Source: Candidatus Aenigmatarchaeota archaeon (lineage in GTDB: Archaea; Aenigmatarchaeota; Aenigmatarchaeia; GW2011-AR5). From it: a DNA stretch of 64,000 nt. This document shows, piece by piece, positions 2,135 through 62,372 of the stretch. Made by a program: the position numbers and the translations under genes. Numbering within the stretch: position 1 is the first letter of the stretch; every line of letters begins with the position of its first letter. Below the pieces are notes generated by a model, which saw only the letters and a list, made by a program, of their open reading frames with translations, had not been told where the DNA came from and ran no database searches. The stretch is from assembly GCA_016187335.1 (NCBI GenBank), contig JACPJW010000001.1:130547-194546 (forward strand), in the 5' to 3' direction.

Positions 2135-2367
2135 TATAACAGAAATTGTTAATGTATGGATTTAAATAGAAATAGGAAGTACTTTCATTCAAAAAGTTTG
2201 CGTTGGCTTAATTTCCGTTAACGCTTTTTAAAATACAAATAATATGTTTCTTTGCTCAGAAAGCGAAAGCTTTCTGGCAACTCAAGAAGCTTACGCTTCT
2301 TCGAGTTTTCCCGAGGGTTTTTCGAAACAGCTTGACGCACTTTGTGCGTCGTTCGGCTCGAAAAGGC
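2097..2367. other. intergenic stretch without a gene
   Basis: Between the minus-strand gene starting at 2036 and the stop at 2368 I find no credible gene. It holds the end of the double inverted repeat, a TATA-like ATTTAAATAG (2159-2168) with no gene after it on +, and the 87-bp hairpin element at 2237-2323. Confidence 0.5.
2237..2323. repeat. 87-bp paired-hairpin element, copy A
   Basis: Identical base for base to 6251-6337. It contains hairpin 1 (CAGAAAGC-gaaa-GCTTTCTG, 2257-2276), a short GGCAA-type linker and hairpin 2 (AAGAAGC-ttac-GCTTCTT, 2284-2301) flanked by CTC and GAG. It lies just beyond the 3' end of the TIM-barrel gene. Confidence 0.9.
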
Positions 2368-6250: not shown

Positions 6251-6337
6251 AAATAATATGTTTCTTTGCTCAGAAAGCGAAAGCTTTCTGGCAACTCAAG
6301 AAGCTTACGCTTCTTCGAGTTTTCCCGAGGGTTTTTC
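6251..6337. repeat. 87-bp paired-hairpin element, copy B
   Basis: Identical over 87 bases to 2237-2323. It sits between the divergently transcribed membrane protein gene (start 6198) and the gene at 6395, so it lies in both upstream regions. A further palindrome-like TTTTTCTTTGCAAAAGAAAAAGG follows at 6333-6355. Perfect identity implies recent copying or gene conversion. Confidence 0.9.
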
Positions 6338-6394: not shown

Positions 6395-6934
6395 ATGGTA
6401 TGGGCGCGGACAAAGCTGATGATATGGGACTACATATTCGAGCCCGTTGTGGACGTGAGAATAAGCTACACCGGGAAAACGCCCGAGAAGTTCTACAAGA
6501 AAATCAACGAGTACATACGCACGATTTTCAACATCCCCGACGCCTACGTGCAGGAAAAGAACTACCTGTGGGAAAAGAACAAGGACGGCGAGAAATTCGA
6601 GGTCGCGTGGGAAATCACGAAAATCCTTGACGTCTTCAGCTACATCGTCGTTGAAATAGATTTAAGGGGGTTCTCAGCCGCCGGCGAGGGCAAGGCCACG
6701 GTAAGGCTGAAGCCGAGGCTGATAACGGAATATCCGCAGGACACGATATTCCAGCAGAACCTTCTTTACGAAATACTGAGAAGGACGTGGCACAGGCTTT
6801 TTTACCACAGGAAAAGGATGGAGTACCTGAATTTAGGGAAGGAGCTCGTGACGACGTTTGAGAGCAGCGTAAAGCGCTTCGGCGAAACCATGAACGGCGA
6901 GCCGGAAAGCAGGGAAGAGGCAAGCCAGGGATAA
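6395..6934 (+). CDS. hypothetical protein, paralogue of the next gene
   Basis: A 179-residue soluble protein starting MVWARTKLMIWDYIFEP, with a mixed alpha/beta pattern. It shares with the gene at 6987 the order: a GKxP motif near the N-terminus, a beta strand ending in RGF or QGE, a GxGxA.VR strand, a YP motif, then a helix with an aromatic-Arg cluster (HRLFYHRKRMEYL). The charged C-terminal tail is probably disordered. A membrane-facing or lipid-binding role is only a guess from the aromatic-basic helix. Confidence 0.7.
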   Translation: MVWARTKLMIWDYIFEPVVDVRISYTGKTPEKFYKKINEYIRTIFNIPDAYVQEKNYLWEKNKDGEKFEVAWEITKILDVFSYIVVEIDLRGFSAAGEGKATVRLKPRLITEYPQDTIFQQNLLYEILRRTWHRLFYHRKRMEYLNLGKELVTTFESSVKRFGETMNGEPESREEASQG

Positions 6935-45730: not shown

Positions 45731-45790
45731 TCTCTTTGCGCAGAAACCAAAGGTTTCTGGCAATCCCAGAAAGCTCTTGCTTTCTGAGGA
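45731..45790. repeat. paired-hairpin element, copy C
   Basis: TCTCTTTGCG then CAGAAACC-aaa-GGTTTCTG, linker GGCAATCC, then CAGAAAGC-tctt-GCTTTCTG and GAGG. It keeps the layout and linker of copies A/B but has different stem sequences. It lies upstream of the tRNA-Ser gene. Confidence 0.75.
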
Positions 45791-45867
45791 TTCTAATCTC
45801 ATTTCCCTTATTACAAAATATTAAAGAATTAGTTTATTAGGGCTCTGAGAAGCCCTACCCTTTTGAT

Positions 45868-51232: not shown

Positions 51233-51252
51233 TTTTTTGACACCTTCATCAT

Positions 51253-51305
51253 GCCCAAAAACCGTTAGGTTTTTGGCATCCCGAAGAACCTTTGTTCTTC
51301 GAGGA
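51253..51305. repeat. paired-hairpin element, copy D
   Basis: CCAAAAACC-gtta-GGTTTTTGG, linker CATCCC, then GAAGAAC-cttt-GTTCTTC and GAGG. It has the same architecture and GGCAtCCC-type linker as copies A-C with other stem sequences. It lies between S15 and Bud32. Confidence 0.7.
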
Positions 51306-51353
51306 AAGCAGGAAGGAATGTGCTGAAGGCAGCATGAACTTTCTTTTTCCGCT

Positions 51354-61448: not shown

Positions 61449-62372
61449 TCAAATGTGCTCGAACTTCTCGCCGAGGCTTTCAAGGACGAGCCTTATTCCT
61501 TTTTCCAAGCTGACATTAGGTTTCCATCCCAGTCTGCTTATCTTCGTTATGTCGGCAATGCTGCGCTCCGGGTCAAACGAGGAAGGCGGCATTCTTTTTA
61601 TGTTCGGCTTGTACCTTGTTGTCTTTTCTATGGTTTCTATCAGCTGCAGGACAGAAGTTTCTTTGCCCGTTCCTACGTTGTATATTCCCGTGTGCTCCAT
61701 GCCGAGGAGCAGCGCGTCAACGACATCGTCAACATACACGAAATCCCTTGTCTGGCGCCCCGTGCCGATGAGCGGCATCTCCTCGTAATTCATCATCTTC
61801 CTGCAGAATACGTTTATGACGCCTGTGTTGTTGAAAGGCCCGTAGACGTTGAAAAGCCTTGTGACGAAAGCGTCCGTGCCTTTCAGCAGCTGCTCAGCCT
61901 TGAGCTTCGTTGTGCCGTAGTATGATATTGGTTTGCAGTTTGCTGTCTCTTTCAGCGGCGGCGGCGCGTTGCCGTATACTGCCGCTGTTGACGTGAAAAC
62001 AATCTTTGCTCCCCGCTTTTCCGCGGCGTCAAAAATAGTTTTTGAACCCAGATAATTCACTTTATACATTAGGTCTTCGTCAACATTGCGCGCCTGCGCT
62101 ATTGCCGCCAGGTGGAAAACAGCCTTGCATCCCTGCATTGCAATTCTGACGTCTTCCTCGCTCCTGATGTCGCCGGCAATGAACTTTGCCTTCGGATTTC
62201 TTGCAGAAACCAAAGGTTTCTGAAGACTCAGGAAAGTCTTTGGAGAATCTTTGCTTTCCTCGAGTTTTGGCTGTGCATTGTCCATAACAATAACTTCATT
62301 TCCGTTTTCTACCAGTTTATTGACAAGGTGCGTCCCGATGAATCCGGAGCCGCCTGTCACTAGAACTTTCAT
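61449..62372 (-). CDS. NAD-dependent nucleotide-sugar epimerase/dehydratase
   Basis: A 307-residue short-chain dehydrogenase-type enzyme. TGGSGFIGTHL (7-17) binds NAD, VFHLAAIAQ and YYGTTKLKAE (Tyr-x3-Lys) form the active site, and FVYVDDVVDALL follows. It probably makes UDP-galactose or a related sugar for glycans. Residues about 36-58 (KLEESKDSPKTFLSL onward) are an extra segment between the first two beta-alpha units, encoded by a paired-hairpin element. The start overlaps the upstream HAD gene by four bases. Confidence 0.93.
   Translation of the reverse strand: MKVLVTGGSGFIGTHLVNKLVENGNEVIVMDNAQPKLEESKDSPKTFLSLQKPLVSARNPKAKFIAGDIRSEEDVRIAMQGCKAVFHLAAIAQARNVDEDLMYKVNYLGSKTIFDAAEKRGAKIVFTSTAAVYGNAPPPLKETANCKPISYYGTTKLKAEQLLKGTDAFVTRLFNVYGPFNNTGVINVFCRKMMNYEEMPLIGTGRQTRDFVYVDDVVDALLLGMEHTGIYNVGTGKETSVLQLIETIEKTTRYKPNIKRMPPSSFDPERSIADITKISRLGWKPNVSLEKGIRLVLESLGEKFEHI
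62195..62265. repeat. paired-hairpin element, copy E, inside the epimerase gene
   Basis: CAGAAACC-aaa-GGTTTCTG (62204-62222) is identical to hairpin 1 of copy C. It is followed by GGAAAG...CTTTCC and CTCGAG. The element is translated in frame and adds about 17 residues compared with usual epimerases. Confidence 0.7.

Follow-up and report, generated by a model that had tools for sequence, protein, structure and literature searches.

The window analysed here is a stretch of 64,000 nucleotides from a Candidatus Aenigmatarchaeota genome (G000). On its minus strand, at 61449-62372, lies a gene for an NAD-dependent epimerase/dehydratase of 307 residues (extended SDR, UDP-glucose-4-epimerase-like), with an intact reading frame. 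Its identity rests on a Pfam match to PF01370 (E = 8.6e-50) and on its top PDB match, the UDP-glucose 4-epimerase 4zrm (E = 4.6e-45). The protein reads VIVMDN-AQPKLEESKDSPKTFLSLQKPLVSARNPKAK-FIAGDI, i.e. 31 residues separate DN from FIAGDI. The original prediction, made from the sequence, held that this spacing of about 31 residues (DN to FI.GDI) compares with about 14 typically. This proved accurate: relatives typically have about 14 residues, as in DN-LSTGKKENLDKAAK-FINGD of genome G008, and the orthologue of the same genus (G001) has even fewer. Between the two motifs sit 22 surplus residues (36-57, KLEESKDSPKTFLSLQKPLVSA). In a pairwise alignment, VVVLDANVP-RNSKARF of G001 faces VIVMDNAQP-KLEESKDSPKTFLSLQKPLVSA-RNPKAKF of the window, with one clean 22-residue gap, the sharp insertion that was to be expected against the closest epimerases. 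The aligned parts are 78% identical, with 49, 33 and 143 differences at the first, second and third codon positions, i.e. mostly at third positions. At the nucleotide level, the flank CAGCCA|AGAAATCCG of the insert corresponds to GTGCCG|AGAAACAGC in G001. The 22-residue stretch is also missing from 18 further relatives, these being the ones whose sequence spans the region, and no close homologue free of the hairpin was found with the same residues at this place. Since the site is empty in G001 and in the 18 other relatives, the insertion is derived in the lineage of the window.

The insertion comprises 66 nt at 62201-62266 (minus strand), its ends being ambiguous by 3 nt (CAA), up to 62204-62269; the position first proposed, 62195-62265, was thus off by no more than a few bases. 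The coding strand of the insert reads AACTCGAGGAAAGCAAAG-ATTCTCCAAAGA-CTTTCCTGAGTCTTCAGAAACCTTTGGTTTCTGCAAGAA. The segment matches R1, a covariance model that we built from nine copies of a two-hairpin element, at 62198-62266 on the minus strand (55.8 bits, E = 8.5e-11). Hairpin A (CTCGAGGAAAG...CTTTCCTGAG; 62227-62264, minus strand, stem CTCAGGAAAG...CTTTCCTCGAG) holds in its loop the 12 central nucleotides, ATTCTCCAAAGA, which are missing from an intergenic copy in another part of the genome. Hairpin B (CAGAAACC...GGTTTCTG; 62204-62222, minus strand) is closed by a three-nucleotide loop (AAA, or TTT as the feature is written for the minus strand), and hairpin A is its mirror image. Without the 12 nt, the epimerase insert is identical to this intergenic copy (G000:C2:76375-76433) over 57 nt with no mismatch (BLAST E = 5.8e-16), which excludes a chance origin of the hairpin insert. 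Both copies fold as hairpin A followed by hairpin B, with one bulged nucleotide near each base, and the fold outdoes nearly all shuffled sequences (z of about -3.1 to -3.6). That the surplus stretch is encoded by a hairpin copy, as had been proposed, is therefore borne out by the intergenic identity, the R1 match and the folding. A near-identical unit was also found in G008, which belongs to a different genus (L184).

We then examined how widely this element is dispersed. R1 matches about 45 separate places in the window genome, five of them inside the window. Besides the epimerase copy, these are four copies on the minus strand: an intergenic copy at 2249-2307 (66.9 bits), a second one at 6263-6321 that is identical to it, a third at 45733-45792 (57.5 bits) that has CAGAAACCAAAGGTTTCTG in common with the epimerase copy, and a weaker family member at 51250-51307 (37 bits). 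The first two lie within a block of 87 nt that is identical at two unrelated places of the window (2237-2323 and 6251-6337); a further site, C2:491900 (L038), resembles the site of this block minus the two-hairpin unit. Most copies are intergenic, and among the roughly 45 places in the genome the epimerase copy is the only one inside a recognised conserved gene. C2:83206 was considered as a second coding copy and rejected, as it sits in a leader upstream of a pilin-like gene; L193 and L220 were likewise rejected, both lying upstream of the likely real start. Beyond the window genome, R1 matches occur in 29 of 30 sampled genomes of the same order, several of which give more than 100 (counting both strands), and are nearly absent from 65 genomes of other orders in the class. 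Across 135 distinct copies, double changes were observed at all 19 base pairs. These amount to 585 cells, whereas shuffles give 168 and slid structures no more than 72; 97.3% of the cells are paired. Fitting the alignment to the model biases this count towards the structure, yet the slid controls fall far below it.

To what extent the element has moved recently can be seen between two congeners. For this comparison, about 400 kb was taken from G008 and about 525 kb from G013, and clean indels of 40-310 nt were retained. From the 37 indels found, the commonest length is 54 nt, i.e. 18 codons (6 cases), any other length occurring at most twice; insertion or loss has thus been recent. Two indels measure 108 nt, or 2 x 54, and carry four hairpins. 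The ends of the 54-nt indels are ambiguous by 1-3 nt, often containing AT, and show no flanking homology. The 66 nt of the epimerase insertion equal 54 + 12 nt. Of the six insertions of 54 nt, three fall within open reading frames and three outside them, so the length is intrinsic to the element and was not imposed by selection for frame. Copies are also nested in one another and in other hairpins, such as the copy at C2:83900, which a TTTTGAT-AACTTTT hairpin holds in its loop. Also polymorphic between the two congeners are bigger two-hairpin insertions, 116-134 nt long and containing nested hairpins (L281, L283, L293, L294, L303 and L324). As a candidate mover we considered a Y1/RAYT transposase and rejected it: at 76-91% genome completeness, the Y1 transposase (PF01797) is absent from G000 and from the copy-rich genomes G004, G010 and G015, and its presence is uncorrelated with copy number.

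The epimerase insertion is not an isolated event: it is one of many in-frame insertions made by a family spread across this archaeal order. Our screen for coding copies took open frames only, and insertions that break genes would escape it. In G013, an MFS transporter (PF07690, E = 1.4e-73) contains exactly 54 nt (18 residues) that are missing in G008, at 92% nucleotide identity, and a DNA-alkylation repair protein (PF08713) contains 36 residues missing from the orthologue of the window genome itself. In G008, a PKD-domain protein has 36 residues and a 126-residue open reading frame has 18 residues that are missing in G013, while a 505-residue membrane protein shows 18 residues nested within an older insertion. 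The MFS, DNA-alkylation repair and PKD genes and the 126-residue frame each have an orthologue in which the site is exactly empty. In-frame copies were also identified in CobO/BtuR of G020 (compared with G002), in an Endo_dU protein of G013 (compared with G004) and in a VTT-domain protein of G013. Both G008 and G013 have elements in the MetRS linker and in the N-terminal region of FtsY, so that these two genes offer no empty site between the congeners. For MetRS (L289:17730-19934 and L329:2685-4880), the element lies at the same linker with very different sequences, and fast turnover or replacement in place may have occurred there. Pfam confirms carriers including the MFS, DNA-alkylation repair, MetRS, FtsY, Endo_dU, VTT and CobO proteins; the many small open frames that run over elements are without Pfam support. 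Strand and reading frame of the element are the same in the genes for the epimerase, the MFS transporter and CobO. The clear coding copies preserve the frame and nearly all of them are free of stops. Per frame, 53-77% of the copies are stop-free vs. 28% of shuffled sequences, so that 54 nt entering in a random frame are often tolerated. A stop codon does lie inside the inserted element in the G013 orthologue (L314, about 6570-6630) of the membrane protein at L281:3799-5316, which suggests that some insertions damage genes and that not every coding copy is harmless.

These results support the proposal that a dispersed hairpin element has inserted sharply and in frame. We put at about 90% the probability that a small mobile two-hairpin DNA element has left a copy in the epimerase gene, inserted in frame and now translated. 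That the copy is translated we infer from the preserved frame and from how well the remainder of the gene is conserved; the segment would form a surface loop at a position that tolerates it, with predicted insert-derived peptides TFLSLQKPLVSAR and LEESKDSPK, the empty junction reading AQPRNPKAK. The site of insertion is the connection between strands beta2 and beta3, to which an AlphaFold model built from three sequences also assigns the insert, with a mean pLDDT of 46 that is too poor for placing the loop. As the length of this connection varies within the SDR superfamily (PDB alignments), the surplus could be thought of as ordinary loop variation and the hairpin as a coincidence of purine-rich codons. 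We regard this as practically refuted by the 57-nt identity with an intergenic copy, the sharp 66-nt gap with G001 and the covarying family. Some archaeal mRNAs are spliced, and since the element forms bulged hairpins, the segment might instead be excised from the mRNA, by bulge-helix-bulge-type splicing or another form of removal, and never translated. Splicing would not demand that clear coding copies keep the frame, nearly all without stops, although this argument is tempered by a screen that favoured open frames and by a 54-nt length that alone preserves the frame. An informal look across the junctions revealed no apparent bulge-helix-bulge motif, and we consider excision very improbable.

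Somewhat less remote, but still unlikely, is that the elements are cis-acting intergenic structures of RNA or DNA (terminators or RNA-processing hairpins), one of which reached the epimerase by ectopic recombination or gene conversion and not by transposition. The intergenic position of most copies, a covariation like that of RNA or structured DNA, and a Y1 search that yielded no transposase to move them would all fit. This explanation agrees poorly, however, with a 54-nt unit fixed at many unrelated sites, with ends ambiguous by 1-3 nt and no flanking homology, and with copies that nest in one another and in other hairpins; moreover, no Rfam family matched the window. In the reading that we favour, the segment is a mobile copy, and the element is a unit of about 51-54 nt that consists of two mirror-image hairpins with a one-nucleotide bulge near each base. 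A putative trans-acting enzyme would insert it, in many cases at short sites containing AT. Each insertion adds exactly 54 nt (18 codons) and so always keeps the downstream frame, in a sequence poor in stops in all six frames. Intergenic copies would be neutral, and coding copies would persist in an open frame at positions that accept a loop. In the lineage of the window, one such copy, with 12 nt more in the loop of hairpin A, entered the beta2-beta3 connection of the epimerase and would be translated as 22 surplus residues of an otherwise conserved enzyme. More broadly, and with less assurance, we lean towards the view that this order of small-genome archaea hosts still-active 54-nt miniature elements, probably moved by a non-Y1 enzyme. 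These would invade coding as well as non-coding DNA because the unit, with 18 codons and few stops in any frame, adds peptide rather than breaks genes, and would remodel essential proteins, MetRS and FtsY among them.

The precedent invoked at the outset, the Rickettsia palindromic elements (RPEs), are about 150 bp long and are found in frame in many Rickettsia genes (PMC10969869); a Wolbachia counterpart (WPE) is cited in PMC3733652. The RPE is an apt analogy for the mode of action. The archaeal element shares with RPEs and WPEs a small, dispersed, hairpin-forming repeat (as seen from folding, R1 and covariation), several families, and positions both between genes and in frame in unrelated conserved genes. 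RPEs are bacterial, whereas the archaeal unit has 54 nt and two mirror-image bulged hairpins. The archaeal element works like an RPE, but its length, architecture and host domain set it apart and we do not class it as one. With REP/REPIN (BIME) sequences, it shares bulged hairpins in mirror-oriented pairs, high copy number and intergenic clusters. REPs carry a GTAG or CGTC tag (PMC3733652), and no such conserved tag stands beside the hairpin in our alignments A2 and A3. REPs are also extragenic, whereas the archaeal elements lie within genes too, and Y1/RAYT is absent from the four genomes mentioned above. Prokaryotic MITEs, among them archaeal ones and QMITE1 of Coxiella, are likewise short, non-autonomous mobile elements, and some yield in-frame fusions (PMC10969869). 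The archaeal element appears to differ, with an end repeat of just 1-3 nt, often with AT, and by eye no constant long terminal inverted repeat; a search limited to Y1 transposases found no parent insertion sequence.

Protein-coding palindromes were earlier reported from Rickettsia and later from Wolbachia. The original prediction knew of no archaeal counterpart, and we too found no precedent for in-frame archaeal palindromes in the literature searched, where archaeal MITEs are known. If this compact, apparently active archaeal version is indeed unrelated, the insertion of hairpins into proteins would have evolved more than once. Moreover, several occupied and empty gene pairs in close relatives open to direct test an old question, whether the added peptides are expressed, neutral or useful.

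Other hairpin families were also observed. A second one, TTTTGAT-nn-AACTTTT(n)AAAAGTT, has many copies genome-wide and in the window (30833, 35164, 45636, 45858 and 47189), and its TTGAT is similar to the target site used by IS605-type elements (ISDra2). In the loop of a third, outer stem, TTTCCGTAGACGCTTTC...GAAAGGGTCT, members of the second family are often lodged, giving nested palindromes (L079, L082, L083, L095 and L099). Finally, a hairpin GAGAGAAACC-n-GGTTTCTTCTC was found in L113 (C2:83368-83970), in L120 and in the upstream region of L049; it appears to encode pilin leader peptides, GEKxxGFFSxKG, directly before the class III signal cleavage site.
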